In this document: positions 337 through 10,252 of the stretch, piece by piece | How the letters are laid out: each line of letters begins with the position of its first letter | Position numbering within the stretch: position 1 is the first letter of the stretch | Assembly (NCBI GenBank): GCA_021790195.1 | Contig: JAJYIF010000014.1 | Span: 1-64,000, forward strand | Source: Nitrospirota bacterium | GTDB taxonomy: Bacteria > Nitrospirota > Thermodesulfovibrionia > Thermodesulfovibrionales > UBA9159 | DNA: 64,000 bases | Direction: 5' to 3' | Made by a program: the position numbers and the translations under genes | The notes under the pieces: model-generated | What the model was told of the DNA's origin: nothing | What the model saw: the letters and a program-made list of their open reading frames with translations, nothing else | Databases searched by the model: none

Positions 337-690
337 GTGAATGAAATGCTCCTGTGCACGCACAATCCCCTTCTGATAAAGGACTTCTACGGGATCCTGA
401 GGGATGAAGGATTCAACGTGGCGATTGCGGACCACCCGGCCCGCGCGGTCCAGATGGTACTGGAGAAGGAGTACGCCTCGGTCATTATCGACTCCGAGTC
501 CTTCGGGCTTTCGGCGGAGGAAGCGGTCCAGATCATAAGGAGCACATTGCCCGGCATCCCTATAGTAGTCGTGGGGCTTAAACAGCATATTCCGGACGTC
601 CTGAACGTCAGGATGCCGATCGACCTTGAAGAATTCAAACAAACGATCTTAGATGTCCGCAGGGTTGGAGCTTTATACCGTACGGCATGA
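337..690 (+). CDS. Degenerate response-regulator receiver domain protein
   Basis: A stand-alone protein of about 117 residues with the receiver (CheY-like) pattern: an N-terminal hydrophobic strand (LLCTHNPLL), a central acidic residue at the phospho-acceptor strand (VIIDSE, near residue 53) and a C-terminal MPIDLEEF that matches the usual KP-[ILV]-[DE] end, but with Arg-Met in place of Lys. The acidic pocket after the first strand is missing (THN instead of DDE or similar), so normal phosphorylation is doubtful. The start is GTG at 337, with ATG at 346 as an alternative. The stop overlaps an ATGA, and methyltransferase A begins 21 nt further on, so the two are probably co-transcribed. A role in sensing or regulating the methyl-transfer operon is inference only. 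Confidence 0.6.
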   Translation: MNEMLLCTHNPLLIKDFYGILRDEGFNVAIADHPARAVQMVLEKEYASVIIDSESFGLSAEEAVQIIRSTLPGIPIVVVGLKQHIPDVLNVRMPIDLEEFKQTILDVRRVGALYRTA

Positions 691-710: not shown

Positions 711-1751
711 ATGACGCCAAGAGAGATAATTCTGAAGGCATTTGAAATGGGCAGGCCGGAAAGGGTCCCGGTGACTGTTTTCGGCGGGGGGATGTGGTCC
801 ATCAAGGATTACGGGACAAGCTTCGAAGAGCTTTCTCTCAACTCCGATAAGATGGCCGACATGTGCGTGACCGAGTCAGGTAGGATAAGGAGCGACGTCG
901 TGTATGTCGGCTCGGGCTACAACAACTTCCACGCCGTGGCCGTCGGCAGGGCCCTCGGCGCCGGGATCAAGTTCAGGGAGATAGGCGCGCCGGATCTTAC
1001 GGGCCATTTTATCAACTCGGAAGACGACATCGCAAAACTCGATACATCCGACATTCACAAAGACCCGGTGGTGAAGACCGTGATGGATGCTACGCGGAAG
1101 GTGAATGAGAAGATAGGAAAGGAATTCCTGATCACGATGACGTGCTGGGGACCTTTCACACTTGCTGCGAGGATGGTCGGCGAAGAGACGTTTATGAAGG
1201 CGATCTTCAAAAAGCCGTCCTTTGTGGAGAAGATGGCCGATTTTTGCGCGGACCTCCTGATCCGTCTCTATGATCCGCTTGTCTCGGAGGGAACGCTTGA
1301 CTGTCTGAGCATCGCGGACCCGACGGCATCGGGGGACCTGATAAACAAGAAGCAGATGGAGCGTTTTGCCGTTCCGCCTTTAAAGAAGGTGACGGACTGG
1401 GCGAGGTCGAAGGACGCGCATACTATCCTGCACATATGCGGAGATACGAGCGACCGCCTCGAACTGTTTCCCATGACGGGCGCGAGCACCATATTCTTCG
1501 ATCAAAAAGTGGACATAAAGAAGGCTAAGGAGGTCTTGTCCGGCAGGATGTGTTTCGGAGGGAACATCGCGCCGGTCCATGTCCTGCTCAATAAAACGGC
1601 CGACGAGGTCGAGCAGGCCTGCATAGAGGTCATCGAGATAGCAGGCAAGGATGGAGGCTTTGTGCTTGTGCCGGGCTGCGACATACCGCCGACCATCCCG
1701 TATGAAAACCTCAAGAGATTCCACGATGTGGCTTTTGAGTGGAGGCTTTAG
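711..1751 (+). CDS. UroD/MtaA-family corrinoid methyltransferase (A)
   Basis: This belongs to the uroporphyrinogen decarboxylase / MtaA / CmuA superfamily, TIM-barrel proteins that move methyl groups to or from corrinoid proteins. The zinc-binding signature is visible: HICGDT in the C-terminal half and PGCDIP near the end, giving the H-x-C...C ligand set of MtaA-type enzymes and not the decarboxylase active site. I place the start at ATG 711 because GGAGG lies 5 nt before it; an upstream in-frame ATG at 687 overlaps the previous stop but lacks a ribosome binding site. A second, different paralogue lies at 3455-4486, with a corrinoid protein just after it. By analogy with MtvB/MtoB systems, one paralogue may demethylate the substrate and load the corrinoid. 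Which one does so, and with what substrate, cannot be read from the sequence. Confidence 0.85.
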   Translation: MTPREIILKAFEMGRPERVPVTVFGGGMWSIKDYGTSFEELSLNSDKMADMCVTESGRIRSDVVYVGSGYNNFHAVAVGRALGAGIKFREIGAPDLTGHFINSEDDIAKLDTSDIHKDPVVKTVMDATRKVNEKIGKEFLITMTCWGPFTLAARMVGEETFMKAIFKKPSFVEKMADFCADLLIRLYDPLVSEGTLDCLSIADPTASGDLINKKQMERFAVPPLKKVTDWARSKDAHTILHICGDTSDRLELFPMTGASTIFFDQKVDIKKAKEVLSGRMCFGGNIAPVHVLLNKTADEVEQACIEVIEIAGKDGGFVLVPGCDIPPTIPYENLKRFHDVAFEWRL

Positions 1752-1820
1752 AAAGGGAGGTGATGCAGGAGAGTTCCGGTCATCAGGGAAGAAGGTCTTT
1801 GAGAAGAACAAGAAACTGTC

Positions 1821-1842
1821 GCTCGGGGCGAGGCGCCCGAGC
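1821..1842 (+). other. Intercistronic hairpin
   Basis: GCTCGGG and CCCGAGC form a seven-pair stem around an 8-nt loop in the 111-nt gap between methyltransferase A and the next gene. No T-run follows and a strong ribosome binding site (GAGGAGG) comes 8 nt after it. It is more likely an mRNA stability or processing hairpin than a terminator. Confidence 0.45.
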
Positions 1843-1862
1843 GCAAAGAGGAGGTAAGAGAA

Positions 1863-2300
1863 ATGGCGAAAATGACACCAGAGGAAGTCAACAAATACAT
1901 GGAGCAGACAATGGGGTTTGTCCCCAGAATGTTCAAGATCATAAACACGGTGACCCCGGACCCCGGCAAGACCTTTGCCGACTTTTACGCCACGATTTTC
2001 GGGGACGGCGCGCTTTCAAAAAAGGTGAAGGAACTGATGTTCATGTCGGGCGGTGTCTCCTATTGCTCTCCGAGGTGCATCATCCATGTCGTTCCGGCGA
2101 TCAATGCCGGCGCAACCACGGGAGAGATATTCGAGGCAGCCGCCGTCGGCATGATATTGGCCGGCTTTGTGCCTGGAGGGCCCGGAATACCCTATGCCTT
2201 TGAGTATGCCCTCAAATGCCTGGACATCGAGGCGAAGTACAGGAAGGGCGAGAGCTGGGAATACCTTCCGCAGCCGAAGTTCGACCACGGCGTGTATTAA
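1863..2300 (+). CDS. Carboxymuconolactone decarboxylase (CMD/AhpD)-family protein
   Basis: A 145-residue all-helical protein of the CMD/AhpD family. The core helix pattern is visible: SKKVKELMFMSGG, a cysteine pair with a histidine (YCSPRCIIHVVPA) and the AINAGATTGEI turn typical of the family. AhpD enzymes have C-x2-C followed by x3-H; here the spacing is C-x3-C-x2-H, so a disulfide or peroxidatic role is uncertain. The start has GAGGAGG 7 nt upstream. It lies between two corrinoid-methyltransferase genes on the same strand. Family members in metabolic operons are often of unknown function, so a redox or substrate-handling role in demethylation is inference. Confidence 0.75.
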   Translation: MAKMTPEEVNKYMEQTMGFVPRMFKIINTVTPDPGKTFADFYATIFGDGALSKKVKELMFMSGGVSYCSPRCIIHVVPAINAGATTGEIFEAAAVGMILAGFVPGGPGIPYAFEYALKCLDIEAKYRKGESWEYLPQPKFDHGVY

Positions 2301-2328
2301 GAGGAAGGTCAACTACAGACGCATGAAA

Positions 2329-2400
2329 GAACCACAGAGGCACGGAGACACAGAGGAATCCACGGCTTCTTTCTTCTCTGTGACTCAGTGTCTCGGCGGT
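2329..2400. repeat. Palindromic intergenic repeat, 'CCACAGAGGCAC' type
   Basis: An imperfect inverted repeat fills most of the gap before the MtrH-like gene. The left arm reads AACCACAGAGGCACGGAGAC and the right arm TCTCTGTGACTCAGTG and onwards. From general knowledge, this sequence style recurs in many bacterial genomes as a dispersed palindromic repeat. The right arm ends about 14 nt before the MtrH-like start and may fold in the mRNA. Confidence 0.7.
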
Positions 2401-2414
2401 AAGAGAGAGGTCCA

Positions 2415-3362
2415 ATGTTCAGCTTTTCGACAAGACAGAAGACTTTCAGTATTAACGGAATTAAGATAGGCGGTCAACCCGGAGAAAATCCGCCTCTTCT
2501 TATCGCTTCGATGTTTCACAACAAGGACAGGATACTCGAAGACAGGAAGGGGAACTTCGACCGCAAAAAGGCAGCGGCGCTGATAAGGAAGCAGGAAGAG
2601 TTGTCGGCTTCGACGGGCATCCCGGGGATGGTTGCCATGGTCGCAAACACACCGGAGGAGGCCCAGATTTACATAGACTTCTTTCTCGAAACAACTTCTA
2701 TGCCCTTCGGGATAGATATGTGGATAGCGGAAAAGAGGGCGAAGGCAACAGAGTATGTGGCGAGGCTGGGCGTCCAGGACAAATTTCTTTATAACAGCAT
2801 CACTCCATGGGACAGGGACATAAAGGCCCAGGTGGGCAAGCTCAAGGACCTCGGTATAAAGCATGTGGTGGTCCAGGCCTTCGATGACGCGGACCAGTCC
2901 CCAGCTGGAAGGCTCAAGTCCCTCGAGAATCTCCTTGAGCAAGGTGCGGGCAGCTTTGAAACGGTTATTGTGGACACTTCTGTTATGAATCTGCCTGCCA
3001 CCTCTTTTTCCCTTGCCGCCAATAGATTGATTAAAGAGAAATGGGGGCTGCCGTGCGGCGGGGCGTATTCAAACGGGACGCATATGTGGAAAGACGCTAA
3101 AGACTCGTGGGGACTTGACGGCTTCAAGGCGATGGACGCCGTGGCCCAGGGGATGTCTTCCGCGTTATGGAGCGATTTTAATTTTTATGGACCGATCGTG
3201 ACGGCGCCCAGGATCTTCCCGGCCGTGGCTACTGCCCACATATTATTATCGACGCTCGTTTACGACGAAACGGGAAGGATCACCGAAAACAAAGATGTTC
3301 CCATAAGGAAACATTTTGCGGATTTCATAGAGAAGGTCGTGACGGGAGGAGCGCGAAGATGA
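2415..3362 (+). CDS. MtrH-like methyltransferase (corrinoid to tetrahydropterin)
   Basis: A 315-residue homologue of the H subunit of methyl-tetrahydromethanopterin:coenzyme M methyltransferase. The diagnostic N-terminal block is present: FSINGIKIGGQPGENP followed by LLIASMFHNKDRI. In methanogens MtrH moves the methyl group between the pterin and the corrinoid. In bacteria stand-alone relatives (for example MtvA of acetogens) pass the methyl from a corrinoid protein to tetrahydrofolate. The rest of the Mtr complex is absent here, which fits that cytoplasmic role. GAGAGAGG precedes the ATG. The gene stands between the two UroD-type methyltransferases, upstream of the corrinoid protein, so it is the likely unloading enzyme. 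Its pterin partner is inferred. Confidence 0.88.
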   Translation: MFSFSTRQKTFSINGIKIGGQPGENPPLLIASMFHNKDRILEDRKGNFDRKKAAALIRKQEELSASTGIPGMVAMVANTPEEAQIYIDFFLETTSMPFGIDMWIAEKRAKATEYVARLGVQDKFLYNSITPWDRDIKAQVGKLKDLGIKHVVVQAFDDADQSPAGRLKSLENLLEQGAGSFETVIVDTSVMNLPATSFSLAANRLIKEKWGLPCGGAYSNGTHMWKDAKDSWGLDGFKAMDAVAQGMSSALWSDFNFYGPIVTAPRIFPAVATAHILLSTLVYDETGRITENKDVPIRKHFADFIEKVVTGGARR

Positions 3363-3379
3363 ACTTTCCATTGCATAAC

Positions 3380-3401
3380 ATGCTGAGCGCATGTTCAGCA
3401 T
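3380..3401 (+). other. Intercistronic hairpin
   Basis: ATGCTGA and TCAGCAT pair across an 8-nt loop just after the MtrH-like stop codon. There is no T-run, and the next gene follows after a good ribosome binding site (AAGGAGG). It may mark an mRNA processing or stability site within the operon. Confidence 0.4.
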
Positions 3402-3454
3402 ATGGAAATGAATTCATGCCCTGCAAGGTGAAGAATGAAGAATAAGGAGGATGG

Positions 3455-4486
3455 ATGATCAAAATAATTTCTGCGAGAGATCGGGTGATGAAGCTCTTCG
3501 GGGGCGAGGAAATCGACAGGCCGCCGTGCTTCAGCGGAATGGGAAACGTGACTGCGGAGGGACTAAAGGAGCTGGGCTACAAGTTCGCCTCGATCCATCT
3601 CGACGCCAGGAAGATGGCCGACTCCTCGGCAACTACTTACAAACTCTTCGGCTTCGAGTGCGGGGTGGTGCCCTTTGATCTCTGCGTCGAGGCGGAGGCC
3701 CTCGGGTGCGAGATAAATGTATATGCCCACCTGGAAGACATCCTCTACCCCACCATAAAAAAGAAGATCATTCACACCGAGGACGAGATGGATATCGCCA
3801 TACCTTCCGGTCTTCAGCACAGGGGAAGGATACCCCTGGTTTGCGAGGCCATCAGGCTCCTGAAGAAAGATATAGGGGGCGAGGTCCCGGTAGGCACATA
3901 TGTGCTCGGGCCCTTTACCCTCGCGGGGCAGATCATGGAGCTCAACGACCTTTTGAAGCTCTCGTTCAAGAAACCCGACAAGGTAGGCAGGCTGCTCGAT
4001 GCGCTTGCAGACGCCGTTATTCTGGTTGCCGGGGAATATGAGAAGGCAGGTGTGGATTATATAACGGTGAGAGAAATGGGCGCTACCTCGGACGTTCTCA
4101 GTCCGAGGGTCTTCAAGGGCCTGATACTGCCATACCTTAAGAAGATCTTTGAGAAGATCAGCGTTCCGAGCGTGCTTCATATCTGCGGCAAGACTAATGA
4201 TATCGTTCCTTTCATGGCGGAGAGCGGGGCGCGGGCGATAAGCGTAGACCAGAAGAACGACGTCGCCGAGTCGCGCAAGAAACTCGGGAAAGAGGCGCGG
4301 ATCTTCGGCAATTACGATCCCTATAACGTACTGGTCGCGGGCAGGCCCGAGCTCGTGCGGGAGACTGTCAGAAAATGTGTCAATGACGGGGTGAGCGCGG
4401 TATGGCCGGGCTGCGACATCTGGCCCACTGTCCCCCCTGAAAATTTCAAGGCCATGATGGAAGAAATCAGAAAGGACGGGAGGTGA
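3455..4486 (+). CDS. UroD/MtaA-family corrinoid methyltransferase (B)
   Basis: A second member of the MtaA/UroD superfamily, 343 residues, clearly diverged from the copy at 711-1751. The zinc ligands are again visible as HICGKTND and PGCDIWP. Other family features are GTYVLGPFTLAG and a C-terminal NYDPYNVL, which corresponds to the NIAPVHVL segment of copy A. The start has AAGGAGG 5 nt upstream. The corrinoid-protein gene begins 3 nt after the stop, a spacing that usually marks a cognate pair, so this copy is the better candidate for the enzyme that acts directly on that corrinoid protein. The substrate, possibly a methoxylated aromatic by analogy with MtvB/MtoB, is not determined by the sequence. 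Confidence 0.85.
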   Translation: MIKIISARDRVMKLFGGEEIDRPPCFSGMGNVTAEGLKELGYKFASIHLDARKMADSSATTYKLFGFECGVVPFDLCVEAEALGCEINVYAHLEDILYPTIKKKIIHTEDEMDIAIPSGLQHRGRIPLVCEAIRLLKKDIGGEVPVGTYVLGPFTLAGQIMELNDLLKLSFKKPDKVGRLLDALADAVILVAGEYEKAGVDYITVREMGATSDVLSPRVFKGLILPYLKKIFEKISVPSVLHICGKTNDIVPFMAESGARAISVDQKNDVAESRKKLGKEARIFGNYDPYNVLVAGRPELVRETVRKCVNDGVSAVWPGCDIWPTVPPENFKAMMEEIRKDGR

Positions 4487-4489
4487 GTT

Positions 4490-5182
4490 ATGGTGACCGA
4501 GGATAAGAAGAAGGAGCTCCTGGAAAGACTCAAGAACGCTGTAATACAGTACGACGAAGACACCGCAAAGGAAGCGGCCAAAGAGGTCCTCGATGTCGGC
4601 ATGAACGCCAACGACGCGATATTCAACGGCCTTGTGAGCGGCATGGAAGAGGTCGGTAGGCTGTTTGAGGCCCAGGAATATTTCGTGCCCGAGCTTTTGA
4701 TGTGCGCCGACGCCCTTTATGCCGGGCTGGACATATTGAAACCTCACGTGCAGCAGCTCGACCTCGGGGTCAAGGGTTCGGTCGTCATCGGAACGGTCGA
4801 GGGCGATGTCCATGACATAGGCAAGAACATCGTGAAGATGATGTTTGATGTGGCTGGCTTTACGGTGTATGACCTCGGCAGGGACGTCCCGCTCGATAAA
4901 TTCGTCGAAGAGCAGCTGAAGACTGACTCGGACCTTGTGTGCCTCTCCGCAATGATGACTACTACGATGGTCGGCATGAAGAAGGTCATCGACGACCTCA
5001 GGGCCAAGAACCCTAACGTGAAGATAATGATCGGAGGGGCCCCTGTCTCCCAGGACATCGCGGAGAAATGGGGAGCGGACGGATACGCAAAGGACGCAAA
5101 TAACGCGCTTAAAGACGCGATCAACATGATCAGCTCTCTCAAGAAACTCAAGGAAGAGGCGGAGGCCAGGAAGTCCCGGTGA
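4490..5182 (+). CDS. Corrinoid (B12-binding) methyl-carrier protein
   Basis: A 230-residue MtaC/MtbC/MtvC-type corrinoid protein that carries the methyl group on cobalt. The N-terminal helical cap domain (about residues 5-90) is followed by a Rossmann-like B12 domain with the base-off/His-on motif EGDVHDIGKNI near residues 103-113, where His is the lower cobalt ligand. LSAMMTTTM and MIGGAPVSQ are the other standard B12-pocket strands. The C-terminus ends in a charged helix. The gene lies 3 nt after methyltransferase B and overlaps the next gene by 4 nt. The cobalt is easily over-oxidised, which explains the activator gene nearby. Confidence 0.95.
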   Translation: MVTEDKKKELLERLKNAVIQYDEDTAKEAAKEVLDVGMNANDAIFNGLVSGMEEVGRLFEAQEYFVPELLMCADALYAGLDILKPHVQQLDLGVKGSVVIGTVEGDVHDIGKNIVKMMFDVAGFTVYDLGRDVPLDKFVEEQLKTDSDLVCLSAMMTTTMVGMKKVIDDLRAKNPNVKIMIGGAPVSQDIAEKWGADGYAKDANNALKDAINMISSLKKLKEEAEARKSR

Positions 5183-5832
5183 ACGATATCCTCAGGAAAG
5201 AGCTTCTCGGCTCCGGGGCCTCTGTTGTCGGCTTCGCTGGTCTCAGGGGAGTTCTGAACAGCGAGATAGCGCACCTTGAACGGGCGGTCTCCATCGGAGT
5301 TGACAGGAACCTTAATGAAAGCACCCTGCGTCTGCTTGGCACGCTGCAAGAGAGAGCAGCAAAGATATTGAAGGCCGAAGGGCACCGCTATCTCTGCATA
5401 CCGCCCGATTCCGACAGGATCAGGAACACCTTTGTGTCGAGACTCTATCCCCTTGTTACGCACAAGATGGCCGCCACCTCGGCCGGTCTAGGATGGATAG
5501 GCAGAAACGGTCTCCTCATAAGCCCCGTTTTCGGTCCGAGGCTGACGCTCGCCACAGTACTGACCGATGCCCCTCTGAAAATCGGCAGTCCTGTAGAATC
5601 CAGCGGATGCGGAGAATGCAGCTTGTGCATGGATTTTTGCCCTTCCAGGGCCATAACAGGCAGGCAGTGGTCGAGGCACGATCCGTACGTCGCCCTTATC
5701 AGCCGGAAAAAGTGCGACTCTCACAAAAGAAAGATGAGGGCGCTCACAGGCAAGCCGAATTGCGGTTTGTGCAGAAGCATTTGCCCTTACGGGAGAGATA
5801 ACAAGGTCTCAAAGATTGGTCAGGCCGTTTAG
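5179..5832 (+). CDS. 4Fe-4S protein related to epoxyqueuosine reductase C-terminal half
   Basis: A 217-residue iron-sulfur protein with two clusters: CGECSLCMDFCP (C-x2-C-x2-C-x3-CP) and a later CGLCRSICPYG that completes the second site with KKCDSH. The segment LGWIGRNGLLISPVFGPR matches the QueG-type family. QueG proteins are usually over 300 residues and have an N-terminal cobalamin-binding domain; this one is shorter, so it is not a standard queuosine enzyme. The GTG start overlaps the corrinoid-protein stop by 4 nt, which implies translational coupling. An electron-transfer role in reducing the corrinoid or its activator is the natural inference. Confidence 0.75.
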   Translation: MNDILRKELLGSGASVVGFAGLRGVLNSEIAHLERAVSIGVDRNLNESTLRLLGTLQERAAKILKAEGHRYLCIPPDSDRIRNTFVSRLYPLVTHKMAATSAGLGWIGRNGLLISPVFGPRLTLATVLTDAPLKIGSPVESSGCGECSLCMDFCPSRAITGRQWSRHDPYVALISRKKCDSHKRKMRALTGKPNCGLCRSICPYGRDNKVSKIGQAV

Positions 5833-5841
5833 TCGCATTGA

Positions 5842-6001
5842 GGAAGGCAGATACGCCTCAAGACCTTTTATAACGCGATTTGATATTAGAACAGGATGTG
5901 CAGAGGCATTCATACATATTGAACTTTGAGATTATCTTCTCGCGTGGTATCGCAATTAAAAGGTATCGCTATAAAAGTCTTTTCGGCGCATCCGCCTTTC
6001 C
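5842..6001 (+). promoter_or_regulatory. Structured palindromic leader element, copy A
   Basis: This 160-nt element ends 41 nt before the activator start codon and begins 9 nt after the previous stop. Its outer arms GGAAGGCAGATACGCC and GGCGCATCCGCCTTTCC pair, and the inner arms AAGACCTTTTATA and TATAAAAGTCTT pair with one bulged C. The interior of about 80 nt is less conserved. Three more copies occur at 16049-16207, 17163-17326 and 18286-18440, each just upstream of a gene and in the same orientation relative to it. It could be a cis-regulatory RNA or an ERIC/REP-like transcribed repeat. Confidence 0.75.
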
Positions 6002-6042
6002 GGCGAAATTGAATTTGAAGCGTTGCATTAATAGGAGGCTTT

Positions 6043-8019
6043 TTGATGACGAAGCACAGAGTGATTTTCCAGCCCTCAGGCAGGCGCGGAGAGGTTGAGG
6101 AAGGCAAGACACTGCTGGAGGCGGCCCAGTCCCTCGGGGTTGATATAGAGGGCCTCTGCGGCAGCAAAAAGGTCTGCGGCAAGTGCAAGGTAAGGATCGA
6201 GGAGGGATATTTTGAAAAGGACAATATCGAATCCGGGATGTCCCATCTTTCCCCTATCACGGAGGCAGAAAAAAAACATATAAAACCCGAAGACGGTCCG
6301 GGAATGCGTCTCGCCTGCACTGCGGAGATTTACGGGGACCTCAAGGTCTTTGTGCCGGAGCGTTCGCGGGCCGGGAAACAGGTGATCCGCAAGGCGGCGA
6401 AGGAGCTTTCCATAGCCATCGATCCCGCGGTGAAGAAATACAACATCGATCTCGTCCCACCGACCCTTCACGACATGGCCACCGGCGATTACGAGCGTGT
6501 TCTGAGATTCCTGGAGGAGGACTACGGAATCAAAGGCCTCACCTTCGACTATGCGGCACTGAAAGGGCTTCAGGACGCCTTGAGGCAGGGAGATTGGAAG
6601 GCGACCGTTACGGTCTGGATGGACAGGGAGATAATAAAGGTCGAGCCAGGTTTTGTGGAGACCTGTTACGGTCTTGCTGTAGACATCGGGACTACAACGT
6701 GCGTGGGATATCTCACTGATCTGAATACCGGGAAGGTGGTCAACACCGAATCTATGATGAACCCCCAGGTGCCTTACGGGGAGGATGTTATGTCCCGCAT
6801 AACCTATGCGATGTCGAACCCTGCGGGACTCGAAACCATGCAGAAGGCCATTATCGAGGGACTCAACGAGATCATTGAGAGGGTGGTTTCGGAGATAAAA
6901 AAGGACGGGCCGAACCCCGGTCACGCGGTGGACGACATGACGATCGTCTTCAATACTGCGATGCACCACATATTCCTCGGTCTCAACCCCGTTTATATAG
7001 GGCGTTCTCCTTTTATACCGGCCGTGCAGAATTCCATGAATATAAAGGCCCGGGACCTCGGTATAAAAATCAACCCTTCCTCTTACATCCATGTGCTGCC
7101 AATCGAGGCCGGTTTTGTGGGTGCAGACAACGTCGGGGTCCTTATAGCCGAAGAGCCATACAACCAGGACGAGATGGTGTTGATAATTGATATAGGCACT
7201 AACGGCGAACTGCTTCTCGGCAATCGCAACAAGGTTTGCTCGACCTCCTGCGCCACCGGCCCTGCCTTCGAAGGGGCGCAGATCAAGTTCGGAATGAGGG
7301 CCGCGCCCGGGGCGATAGAGAAGGTGCAGATTGATCCGCTAACGAAAGAGCCTTTGTACAAAGTCATCGGAAAGGCAGACTGGCATACGCACCTGGAGAA
7401 AGTGAATGCCAAAGGGATCTGCGGCTCAGGCATCATCGAGATTGTCGCGGAGATGTTCAAGGCCGGGATAATAGACAAGACGGGAAGGTTCGTTGTGGAC
7501 CTCGACACACCGAGAGTGAGAAGAGATTCTGAGGGAAAGCCGGAGTATGTCCTGGCCTGGGCGGAAGAGACCTCTATCGGAACGGACATCACAATCACCC
7601 AGGGGGATGTCAGGGCGCTTCAGCTCGCGAAGGGCGCGCTTTATACCGGAGCAAAGCTTCTCATGAAGAGACTGGATGTCGCGAAGCTCGACCGCGTTGT
7701 CCTTGCCGGGGCCTTCGGCAGCCACATAGACAGGGAGGCCTCTCTCACCCTGGGCATGTTCCCTGACTGTCCCATGGACAAGGTTTATGCGGTCGGAAAC
7801 GCGGCCGGGGACGGAGCTAGAATGGCCCTTCTCAATAAAGGGAAGAGGAGTGAGGCGAACGAAAGGGCGAGATGGGTGGAATTTGTCGAGATCGCGACCG
7901 ATCCGACGTTCGAGAAAGAATTCATGCAGGCCATGCATATCCCTCACATGAAGGACAAGTTTCCGAACCTCAAGGCGTTCCTCGAAAAATCGGGAAGCAA
8001 GGTCGAGATAAAAGGATAG
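6043..8019 (+). CDS. Corrinoid protein activator (RACE-type ferredoxin-ASKHA ATPase)
   Basis: A 658-residue reductive activator of corrinoid enzymes (RamA/AcsV/MtoD-like function). The N-terminal 2Fe-2S ferredoxin domain has CGSKKVCGKCKVRI and a later LACTAE. A linker domain with VPPTLHDMATGDYERVL follows, and then the ASKHA ATPase core: AVDIGTTTCVGYL, IIDIGTNGELLLG, the ICGSGIIEIVAEM block and LAGAFGSHID. These proteins use ATP to return inactive Co(II) to Co(I). The start is set by AGGAGG 8 nt upstream, and a structured leader precedes the gene. It very likely serves the corrinoid protein encoded at 4490-5182. Confidence 0.93.
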   Translation: MMTKHRVIFQPSGRRGEVEEGKTLLEAAQSLGVDIEGLCGSKKVCGKCKVRIEEGYFEKDNIESGMSHLSPITEAEKKHIKPEDGPGMRLACTAEIYGDLKVFVPERSRAGKQVIRKAAKELSIAIDPAVKKYNIDLVPPTLHDMATGDYERVLRFLEEDYGIKGLTFDYAALKGLQDALRQGDWKATVTVWMDREIIKVEPGFVETCYGLAVDIGTTTCVGYLTDLNTGKVVNTESMMNPQVPYGEDVMSRITYAMSNPAGLETMQKAIIEGLNEIIERVVSEIKKDGPNPGHAVDDMTIVFNTAMHHIFLGLNPVYIGRSPFIPAVQNSMNIKARDLGIKINPSSYIHVLPIEAGFVGADNVGVLIAEEPYNQDEMVLIIDIGTNGELLLGNRNKVCSTSCATGPAFEGAQIKFGMRAAPGAIEKVQIDPLTKEPLYKVIGKADWHTHLEKVNAKGICGSGIIEIVAEMFKAGIIDKTGRFVVDLDTPRVRRDSEGKPEYVLAWAEETSIGTDITITQGDVRALQLAKGALYTGAKLLMKRLDVAKLDRVVLAGAFGSHIDREASLTLGMFPDCPMDKVYAVGNAAGDGARMALLNKGKRSEANERARWVEFVEIATDPTFEKEFMQAMHIPHMKDKFPNLKAFLEKSGSKVEIKG

Positions 8020-8046
8020 CGTGTTAGAATTGATTAAGGGATTTGA

Positions 8047-8373
8047 ATGACAAAGGTTGAAGTCAGATCAGGGGCGTGCGGGTTCAGCGTTATGATAACC
8101 GCCGAGAAGGGCAGAGACAAAAAGATCCATATCTCGATCGAGACCGAATGCGAAATGGTAAAACAGATGCTCCCCGACATCTCCGCAGTCGATATGATGA
8201 CTCTCTTTTCCGGGTGGCTGAACAATCCGGTCTACAAGTCAGCATCCAGGCAACTAAAGCATGTATCCTGTCCGGTGCCGAGCGGGATACTGAAGGCCGT
8301 GGAGGCCGAAGCAGGCCTTGCCGTCCCTAAAGAGGTGAGTATAATTTTCCTGAGCAGGAACAGCGAAAAGTGA
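8047..8373 (+). CDS. Conserved small protein in methyl-transfer operon
   Basis: A 108-residue protein that I cannot assign. It starts with a strand-rich part (KVEVRSGACGFSVMITAEKG) and contains a Cys-Pro pair (HVSCPVPSGILKAVEAEAGLAVPKE split around residue 75). There are no membrane segments. The first cysteine (GACGF) and the SCPVP cysteine are candidates for metal or cluster binding. It lies between the activator and the membrane Hdr-like gene, 3 nt before the latter, so it is probably part of the same operon. The start has AAGGGA upstream. Confidence 0.65.
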   Translation: MTKVEVRSGACGFSVMITAEKGRDKKIHISIETECEMVKQMLPDISAVDMMTLFSGWLNNPVYKSASRQLKHVSCPVPSGILKAVEAEAGLAVPKEVSIIFLSRNSEK

Positions 8374-8376
8374 GAC

Positions 8377-9057
8377 ATGGGTATTGCGCTGACTCTATGC
8401 ACTTATCTGATCATGCTGGTCTTCCTGGGCGTATCAGGCTCCCGGTTCCTGACATTGTGGAAGGCCTCCATAGCAATGAGGACCGCAATGCCGAAAAAGC
8501 CGCCCGACCCGCTTGTTGTTTTGAAAGGCATCGGGGACATCATTCTTCTGACCCGCCTGATGGAGGCGAACGATCTCCTCTGGCTGGCGGAATGGACGTT
8601 TCACTTCTCTTTTGTCGTCGTCGTCATCAGACATCTCAGATACATTCTTAACCCGGTGCCCGACTGGGTGTGGTATTTTCAGACCCCTGGACTTATTGCG
8701 GGTTATATCCTGCCCGTTTCCCTCCTGTGCATTCTTGCCATAAAGTTGCGGGGCAAAGAATATTTGCCGTCTTATAATCTTTTCCTTCTCGTCCTCTTAT
8801 TTCTGATCGGCATATCCGGTCTCCTCTTGAAGACGGTTTTCCACTCGGATGTTGTGGCGGTCAAGAATTTCATGCTGGGGATTTTTACCTTCAGCCCGCG
8901 GGATCAGCAGCTAAGCCTCCTGTTTGCCGTTCACTATCTCCTTGTCCTCGTGCTGTTTGCCTCTCTTCCCTCCCATATATTTACAGCGCCCTTTGTGATC
9001 ATGGAGGCCAGGATACGCGACGAAGGACTCGAAGCGGTGGTGCATGAAAAAAGATAG
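8377..9057 (+). CDS. NarI/HdrE-like membrane cytochrome b subunit
   Basis: A 226-residue integral membrane protein with about five hydrophobic segments: at the N-terminus (ALTLCTYLIMLVFLG), around WTFHFSFVVVVI, LIAGYILPVSLLCIL, LFLLVLLFLIGISGLLLK and FAVHYLLVLVLFASL. Histidines at FHFSF and VHYLL lie in membrane helices, as expected for heme-b ligands in the NarI/HdrE family. Its last 14 nt overlap the HdrD-like gene, the typical pairing for HdrDE or DsrMK-type modules that link a quinone pool to a cytoplasmic disulfide or ferredoxin-type reaction. It probably supplies or accepts electrons for the methyl-transfer system; direction and partner are inferred. Confidence 0.8.
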   Translation: MGIALTLCTYLIMLVFLGVSGSRFLTLWKASIAMRTAMPKKPPDPLVVLKGIGDIILLTRLMEANDLLWLAEWTFHFSFVVVVIRHLRYILNPVPDWVWYFQTPGLIAGYILPVSLLCILAIKLRGKEYLPSYNLFLLVLLFLIGISGLLLKTVFHSDVVAVKNFMLGIFTFSPRDQQLSLLFAVHYLLVLVLFASLPSHIFTAPFVIMEARIRDEGLEAVVHEKR

Positions 9058-10252
9058 AAGATCCTTTGCCGAAGGGTTATCGGTGCAGCAGCTTCTCGAA
9101 CTGGATGCATGCACGCAATGCGGGGAGTGCCTTGCACGGTGCCCTGTTCAGGACGTCACCGGCAACCCTGCCGTGTCGCCTCCTGAAAAGATCCGCATGT
9201 TCAAGGAGTTCATAAAGAGCACAAACGGTCTTCGCGCGCAGCTCTTCGGGCCAAAGGATGTGGACAAGAGACTCCTTGAGGATTTTGCCAAGGCCGTCTT
9301 TGAGTGTACGACCTGCGGGTCCTGCAGCCAGGTCTGCCCGGTCGGGATCTTTACCCAGAGGCTCTGGCCGGCCCTGAGGAAAGAGATGGTGAGAAGAGGC
9401 CTCGGGCCGATCGGCGTACAGAGGGAGCTTCCGAACGCTGTCAGCCGGACAGGGAACCCTTATGACAGACCGGCAGGGCAAAGGTACTCGCCCTGGTTTC
9501 CAGAGGAGGTCAGGATCTCCGACAGGGCTGATATCGCCTATTATGCAGGATGCACAGGCGCATACGAGGCTCAGCCGATGGTAAGGGGCGATGTGCTTGT
9601 GCTGGCAAGGATCGGCGAGGCCTTTACGATGCTTCCGCCGGAGGAGGAGGTGTGCTGCGGTTTCCCGCTCTTCATCACCGGGCAGCACGATATCCTCGAG
9701 GACCTGATTAAGAGGCTCGTGAATGCGTATAAGGCCCGGGGGGTAAATATATTATTATGTTCATGCCCCTGCTGTGTAAACATGATGACGCGGGATTGGC
9801 CGCTGTTTTACGGAGAGGAGCTTCCCTTCAAGGTCCGCCACATCACTCAGTTCGTTGCGGATGCCGTGAAGGGCGGAAAGCTTCGTATACGGAAAGGACT
9901 TAAGGAGAGGATCATCTATCATGACCCATGCTATCTGGCGCGTGGAGTGAAGGTGATAGAAGAGCCGAGAACCATTCTGAGAAGCATACCTTCGGTGGAG
10001 CTTCTGGAGTTTGAAAGGCACGGCCTTGATACGCGTTGCTGCGGAGCGGGCGGCGCCGCGAGGAAGGTCTTTCATGACAACGCCGTTGCCATGGGAAGGC
10101 TGACTATAAAGGAGGCGACCGACAAGAAGGCAGATAGGCTGATCCTGAGCTGTCCGGCCTGCTATTCAAAGGTAAACGAAGCGATGCAGGGCTATGAGAG
10201 ACAAATCGTGATTACGGATATTATGGAGCTGATCGCCTCTCTGATTAAGTGA
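9044..10252 (+). CDS. HdrD-like iron-sulfur protein (two 4Fe-4S, two CCG domains)
   Basis: A 402-residue heterodisulfide-reductase-type protein. The N-terminus holds two 4Fe-4S sites, CTQCGECLARCP and CTTCGSCSQVCP. Two CCG domains follow: the first around GCTGAYEA, EVCCGFPLF and CSCPCC, the second around HDPCYLARG, TRCCGAGG and SCPACY. The arrangement matches HdrD/DsrK/GlpC-like subunits with a non-cubane or related cluster in the CCG domains. It overlaps the membrane partner by 14 nt and lies downstream of the corrinoid activator. A reasonable model is delivery of low-potential electrons to the activator's ferredoxin domain or oxidation of a thiol product. Confidence 0.85.
   Translation: MKKDRRSFAEGLSVQQLLELDACTQCGECLARCPVQDVTGNPAVSPPEKIRMFKEFIKSTNGLRAQLFGPKDVDKRLLEDFAKAVFECTTCGSCSQVCPVGIFTQRLWPALRKEMVRRGLGPIGVQRELPNAVSRTGNPYDRPAGQRYSPWFPEEVRISDRADIAYYAGCTGAYEAQPMVRGDVLVLARIGEAFTMLPPEEEVCCGFPLFITGQHDILEDLIKRLVNAYKARGVNILLCSCPCCVNMMTRDWPLFYGEELPFKVRHITQFVADAVKGGKLRIRKGLKERIIYHDPCYLARGVKVIEEPRTILRSIPSVELLEFERHGLDTRCCGAGGAARKVFHDNAVAMGRLTIKEATDKKADRLILSCPACYSKVNEAMQGYERQIVITDIMELIASLIK

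Follow-up and report, generated by a model that had tools for sequence, protein, structure and literature searches.

The stretch analysed here, called the window, comprises 64,000 nucleotides of a 3.3 Mb Nitrospirota genome; its first base is also the first of contig C38. Close to its beginning lies an operon for corrinoid-dependent methyl transfer encoding two different proteins of the uroporphyrinogen decarboxylase (UroD) type, here named U1 and U2. The listing of open reading frames (ORFs) gives eleven genes between 337 and 10252, all in one direction on the plus strand and mostly separated by short gaps or overlapping. The core operon spans 711-10252 and is preceded by a receiver-domain gene. 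The original prediction, made from the letters of this DNA, proposed that two distinct UroD-type methyltransferases, an MtrH-like protein, one corrinoid protein and an HdrDE-like pair together form an operon for corrinoid-based methyl transfer. Protein family searches bear this out and every gene it named is an intact plus-strand ORF. The genes at 337-690, 1863-2300 and 8047-8373 were absent from it. Two of its finer assignments hold in part: the membrane subunit called NarI-type is a borderline Pfam case (22.7 bits, cut-off 22.9) with a DsrM match under its cut-off, and the QueG-like protein is a distant relative only. The genes are as follows.

337-690, plus strand: stand-alone receiver-domain protein, probable regulator, directly upstream of U1 (weak Response_reg Pfam match, 22.2 bits, under the cut-off of 30.2)
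711-1751, plus strand: U1, UroD-fold zinc methyltransferase of the wider MtaA/CmuA family (profiles, invariant His-Cys-Cys set, structure model)
1863-2300, plus strand: AhpD/carboxymuconolactone-decarboxylase-like (CMD) protein (PF02627, 27.7 bits, cut-off 23)
2415-3362, plus strand: MtrH-family methyl-pterin:corrinoid methyltransferase (PF02007, 185 bits; NF002142, 342.3 bits, cut-off 287)
3455-4486, plus strand: U2, MtaA-like zinc methyltransferase, probable corrinoid:coenzyme M methyltransferase (TIGR01463, NF004889, His-Cys-Cys set, structure model)
4490-5182, plus strand: corrinoid protein, methyl carrier (PF02310 and PF02607; cobalamin motif)
5179-5832, plus strand: short QueG/RDH-like protein with two 4Fe-4S motifs (PF13484, Fer4_16, 35.6 bits; TIGR00276, 68 bits, cut-off 200)
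6043-8019, plus strand: RACo/AcsV-type ATP-dependent corrinoid reductive activator with a 2Fe-2S domain (PF14574, PF17651, PF17650, PF00111)
8047-8373, plus strand: DUF6951, small Cys/His-containing protein (PF22263, 107.6 bits)
8377-9057, plus strand: HdrE/DsrM/NarI-type membrane b-cytochrome subunit (PF02665 just under its cut-off; DsrM, 57 bits, under cut-off)
9044-10252, plus strand: HdrD-like subunit (PF02754, CCG, and Fer4; TfrB, 200.7 bits, cut-off 385)

The order of these genes is kept across Nitrospirota, beyond chance. U1 was detected in 35 of 101 relatives, the window genome counted (E <= 1e-30), and the gene order recurs in the surrounding regions that were retrieved. Scanning named genomes gave 161 matching loci, of which the best 80 were retained. 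Since these are the closest of the 161, the counts lean toward the canonical form; downstream genes were counted only where the sequence suffices. Most of the 80 carry Nitrospirota labels, a few are labelled Desulfobacterales, Desulfobacteraceae, Proteobacteria or Nitrospina, and one is from an archaeon. The order of detected genes is identical in all of them except L108, where HdrD was called as fragments flanking HdrE on both sides. CMD follows U1 in 70 of 77 loci, and further downstream are found MtrH (59/66), U2 (56/61), the corrinoid protein (52/57), the QueG-like protein (51/57), the activator (47/52), DUF6951 (47/52), HdrE, a divergent and weakly detected gene (36/51), and HdrD (21/24). 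Among the 75 loci with room for it, 51 have a relative of the receiver gene ahead of U1.

U1 and U2 are zinc methyltransferases by family, ligand set and predicted structure. The window genome encodes three URO-D proteins, namely U1, U2 and a HemE-like protein on contig C28 (471.6 bits). Because the HemE-like protein is located elsewhere, the housekeeping role falls to neither U1 nor U2, which answers in the negative a check attached to the original prediction, namely whether either is a true uroporphyrinogen decarboxylase. The predicted zinc ligands are H249, C251 and C331 in U1 (numbered from a start at 687; conservation prefers the start at 711), invariant in 29 sequences, and H242, C244 and C320 in U2, invariant in 27 sequences. 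In both proteins the His-x-Cys motif and the distant Cys align with the same residues of Methanosarcina mazei MtaA, while the alignment places Y-V-H at the H-C-C positions of the genome's own HemE. A check on structure models, likewise proposed with the original prediction, points the same way. In the AlphaFold models (mean pLDDT confidence score 87.8 for U1 and 89.7 for U2) the best solved-structure match of U1 is M. mazei MtaA (4ay8; Z 39.2, 330 residues, 2.2 Å), with the next-best non-MtaA entry at Z 37.4, a small margin over UROD. U2 also matches MtaA best (Z 45.2, 339 residues, 1.9 Å; best non-MtaA entry 36.4). MtoB, MtvB and CdmB were not among the structure matches of either protein, which does not exclude a relation to them. 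U2 exceeds the cut-offs of the MtaA/CmuA subfamily (TIGR01463, 252.6 bits, cut-off 235.4) and of the methylcobalamin:coenzyme M subfamily (NF004889, 275 bits, cut-off 244), and U1 stays under the former (180.3 bits). Selenocysteine in U1 was considered and rejected: one in-frame TGA is listed in each of three relatives, but it precedes the ATG in all three.

The tree comprised 36 UroD proteins, MtaA, CmuA and one unannotated Acetoanaerobium UroD among them. U1 and U2 form separate clades, with U2 on the MtaA side at weak support (64.7/85). As deep support is weak, the tree was used only to tell U1 and U2 apart as lineages and to place CmuA. The placement of CmuA bears on a dehalogenating haloalkane methyltransferase system of the Cmu/Mec type. 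Such a system could be suspected here because U2 followed by the corrinoid protein corresponds to what we take to be the domain order of CmuA, with MtrH presumably resembling CmuB in its role. U2 is only 24% identical to CmuA of pCMU01, however, and CmuA groups with another protein, L058 (97.9/100), apart from both U1 and U2. On identity and tree we reject a CmuA-like chloromethane system and regard haloalkane use in general as very improbable. L058 itself (G001:C62) is followed by corrinoid-protein and MtrH homologs and may mark a haloalkane-type cluster in a relative.

The remaining operon proteins retain the residues typical of their families. The CMD-like protein carries an invariant S69-x-x-C72-x-x-H75 motif. 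PDB relatives of the MtrH-family protein include MtrH and methylcorrinoid:tetrahydrofolate methyltransferase, and its score lies under the stricter equivalog TIGR01114 (163.7 bits, cut-off 271.4). The corrinoid protein has a D106-x-H108-x-x-G111 motif invariant in 26 sequences, and it and U2 are separate ORFs, U2 having no fused corrinoid domain. H76, H86, H186 and H200 of HdrE are invariant in 19 sequences, and HdrD contains two ferredoxin (4Fe-4S) motifs and two complete CCG motifs whose cysteines are invariant in 20 sequences. A membrane b-cytochrome subunit paired with a subunit of two ferredoxin and two CCG motifs is likewise found in HdrDE of Methanosarcina and in its DsrMK/TfrB relatives; the operon's pair differs in falling under all the named cut-offs.

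Past HdrD, the operon of most relatives has two further genes, encoding a cysteate synthase (CysS) and a sulfopyruvate decarboxylase (ComDE). At locus L034, for example, the cysteate synthase scores 455 bits with TIGR03844 (cut-off 324.9), and the fused ComDE scores 183 in its alpha half (cut-off 147.95) and 215 in its beta half (under the cut-off of 221.5). The genes for these two enzymes are presumably neighbours in Methanosarcina as well. In the window genome the pair is located on another contig, at C11 24508-26897 within 141,830 bases. There, cysteate synthase (TIGR03844 equivalog, 466.9 bits) and ComD (TIGR03845 alpha, 173.4) exceed their cut-offs, and ComE (TIGR03846 beta, 219.7) falls just short. 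The two enzymes belong to the Methanosarcina-type (type 2) route, which according to the available part of PMC12068725 leads from phosphoserine to sulfoacetaldehyde, a precursor of coenzyme M (CoM). ComDE is found in 35 of the 101 relatives (E <= 1e-20) and cysteate synthase in 34, each count including one weak match: for ComDE that of G067, at 26%, and for cysteate synthase that of G052.

Co-occurrence was counted across 395 genomes of the phylum, a set overlapping with the 101 relatives, at E <= 1e-90 for U1 and E <= 1e-50 for ComDE. U1 was found in 64 and ComDE in 60; 58 genomes have both, 6 only U1 (G006, G165, G307, G312, G368, G389), 2 only ComDE (G171, and G092 with a partial U1 in the search of 101 relatives) and 329 neither (Fisher p 6e-60, uncorrected for phylogeny). 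Counted by genus (n=170), the corresponding numbers are 37, 3, 1 and 129 (p 1e-32, likewise uncorrected). U1 and ComDE share a contig in 40 genomes and lie within 14 kb of each other in 39 of these. The idea that the CoM genes are mere markers of the Wood-Ljungdahl pathway was discarded: carbon monoxide dehydrogenase/acetyl-CoA synthase (CODH/ACS) occurs in 98 of the 101 relatives, compared with 35 for U1. As a side observation, the ComDE match at G010:C1:110721-111815, from a genome assembled as a single contig, is interrupted by one TAA, possibly a broken gene or an assembly error.

The zinc ligands and the CoM genes together bear on the function first proposed for this operon, O-demethylation of methoxylated aromatics by an Mtv/Mto-type system. 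Four roles do match, namely a UroD-fold methyltransferase I, an MtrH-type methyltransferase II, a corrinoid protein and an activator, as in the MtoABCD and MtvABC systems, the subject of PMC8630106 and PMC13222342. The operon departs from those systems in its zinc ligand set, second UroD protein, linkage to CoM genes and HdrDE. As far as the accessible part of Kountz and Balskus (PMC10418091) goes, an H-C-C set belongs to S-methyltransferases, O-methyltransferases replace one or both Cys, and carboxylate or missing ligands would be expected of Mtv/Mto enzymes; U1, U2 and their aligned orthologs all have H-C-C. In addition, U2 passes the MtaA/CmuA subfamily cut-off, and the co-conserved genes make a CoM precursor. 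On the ligands and the CoM linkage, we reject this function, to which we assign only a very slight chance.

The same parts are found in an archaeon. Candidatus Hydrothermarchaeum profundi, the most distant among the best 80 loci (47%), has one run of U2, corrinoid protein, activator and MtrH, a separate cluster in which U1 lies beside CMD and DUF6951, and a third run that joins the HdrE-HdrD pair to cysteate synthase and ComDE. The archaeal proteins exceed the cut-offs for cysteate synthase (495) and for both Com halves (183 and 236), and the archaeal U2 reaches 275 with the MtaA profile and 261 with TIGR01463. The presence of these parts in a bacterial phylum and an archaeon means that they have been kept in two domains despite the differing order. 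For Hydrothermarchaeota, Carr et al. (PMC6775978) note, in the part available, mtrH without mcr and an alternate fate that methyl-CoM may have. The parts of the module are present in the genome of Ca. Hydrothermarchaeum profundi JdFR-18; the account of Carr et al., as far as that part goes, names mtrH and methyltransferases, not the module, the CoM genes or a bacterial counterpart. Within our set, the alpha subunit of methyl-CoM reductase (MCR; PF02249) was not detected in any of the 101 relatives or in any of 4 distant holders, with two methanogen controls positive.

Judged by gene order and co-occurrence, MtrH, corrinoid protein, U2, U1, activator and HdrDE-like pair are one conserved unit that travels with CysS and ComDE. 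We hypothesize, with a probability of roughly two in three (about 0.66), that the operon forms the core of a CoM-dependent methyl-transfer module in a Nitrospirota bacterium without MCR. From what is known of the families, methyl-tetrahydrofolate from the Wood-Ljungdahl pathway would be the partner with which MtrH and the corrinoid protein exchange methyl groups, and U2 would exchange them between the corrinoid protein and CoM. U1 may bring in or remove the methyl group of a second sulfur compound. The activator would reduce Co(II) and repair oxidised corrinoid, perhaps fed by the QueG-like protein. HdrDE would couple a CoM-containing disulfide to the menaquinone pool. It may alternatively pass electrons from the quinone pool to the activator, as the original prediction suggested; the disulfide role is favoured because HdrDE is linked to CoM genes both in a bacterial phylum and in an archaeon.

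Several points weigh against a CoM-dependent module. It is a proposal from genes and models, and no enzyme consuming methyl-CoM is known in its holders. The MMP16/COG1900 CoM synthase is under its cut-off (TIGR03287, 363.95) in 100 of the 101 relatives, including the window genome (G000), so that the final step has no assigned enzyme and CoM itself is a predicted product. Both UroD proteins stay under the MtaA/MtbA equivalog cut-offs NF040654 (400) and NF041608 (600), with 245.4 and 185.8 for U2 and 152.1 and 168.5 for U1. The co-occurrence p values were not corrected for the tree. G006 has U1 and MMP16, yet CysS and ComDE were not detected there. Among nine distant or paralogous U1 holders, cysteate synthase is over its cut-off in only four (G399, G402, G405, G406) and not in G400, G401, G403, G404 and G407, so U1 can occur without it. 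In two metagenome-assembled genomes (L140, L157), U1 and CMD adjoin a DsrE gene with no CoM pair; U1 is thus not tied to CoM everywhere.

In a catabolic alternative, U1 and the AhpD-like protein would demethylate a methylated thiol or thioether. The corrinoid protein and MtrH would hand the methyl group on to tetrahydrofolate, the reverse Wood-Ljungdahl pathway would oxidise it, and CoM would be no more than a helper thiol. The H-C-C sets of U1 and U2, the MtrH within the operon, the near-universal CODH/ACS, the DsrE genes next to U1 and CMD (L140, L157) and the TusA-like gene that L156 carries close to U1 (named from sequence reading, not by search) all fit. We nevertheless consider it unlikely, as the tight linkage to CoM biosynthesis and the retention of two S-type methyltransferases would be left unexplained.

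A selenium/sulfur methyl salvage cluster of the type 1 MGC kind would fit the layout. Like the type 1 mlp clusters in the available part of PMC10418091, the operon combines two UroD-type methyltransferases with one corrinoid protein and one Ram-type activator, all in one direction and within 2 kb of one another, and the ligands are H-C-C. The type 1 definition, however, bars a tetrahydrofolate methylase within 20 kb, and here an MtrH-family methyltransferase of the tetrahydrofolate type lies inside the operon; nor are HdrDE and CoM biosynthesis described as parts in the accessible text. We consider this origin improbable. Another close comparison for the CoM-dependent module is with the soluble CoM methyltransferases MtaA, MtbA and MtsA of methylotrophic methanogens, which share the UroD fold, H-C-C zinc set and corrinoid partner. 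U2 exceeds the subfamily cut-off, and CysS with ComDE corresponds to the type 2 pathway as given in the available part of PMC12068725. The operon differs from those systems in being bacterial, in its soluble MtrH partner, in the absence of MCR and in a second UroD lineage, U1; neither U1 nor U2 qualifies as an equivalog of MtaA or MtbA.

With regard to the final CoM step, sulfide and sulfoacetaldehyde can react without an enzyme according to the accessible part of PMC12068725. A protein candidate is the product of an NMT1/THI5-like gene. This protein seems to lack a signal peptide; its gene lies beside ComDE in the window genome (C11; L085:9525-10457) and in the archaeon (L182:7919-8836), where it has the same direction as ComDE. 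The gene adjoins ComDE in only part of the loci. The single MMP16/ComF match over the cut-off among the 101 relatives lies at G006:C95:7833-9053 (L171, L175), in a genome that also has a partial second match and two U1 genes.

Other neighbours were recorded around these genes. At L195:12480-12893 a DsrE-family gene separates cysteate synthase from ComDE, and in L120 and L134 one lies upstream beside an OsmC-like gene (named from sequence reading, not by search). U1 paralogs at L163 (10001-13387), L164, L165 and L169 adjoin an unannotated protein of about 590 amino acids, the L163 copy of which has no Pfam or NCBIfam match. A LarC2-like nickel-insertion protein is found near the paralogs in most of these four loci, and L163 also carries DUF2284, a further UroD, a corrinoid protein, an activator and DUF1638.

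A broader and more tentative proposal, which we hold to be possible though not the likelier outcome, is that Nitrospirota and Hydrothermarchaeota share a complete CoM-dependent one-carbon and sulfur energy metabolism that never uses MCR. The soluble MtrH-corrinoid-UroD system would either form methyl-CoM out of the Wood-Ljungdahl pathway or pass it into that pathway, the CoM disulfide would be respired through HdrDE, and U1, the AhpD-like protein and DUF6951 would act on a methyl-sulfur compound.

Nearly all protein families involved are known, with DUF6951 having no known function; their combination in bacteria was not found in the literature searched. That literature, with most subscription papers outside its coverage, gave no description of the module, and two papers on Nitrospirota genomes (PMC10203281, PMC11033732) make no mention of CoM, methyltransferase, heterodisulfide, corrinoid or cysteate. 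In the available part of PMC12068725, CoM is the methyl carrier of methane-metabolising archaea and, when made by a different pathway in bacteria, a cofactor of alkene metabolism. An archaeal-type CoM pathway, patchily but widely spread in Nitrospirota, would here be joined to CoM-type methyltransferases and an HdrDE-like complex with no MCR. If so, methanogenesis has a CoM half (CoM synthesis, methyl transfer to or from CoM, handling of the disulfide) that can stand alone as a module in a group of uncultured bacteria, and the conserved gene set points to an unrecognised use of methyl-CoM.

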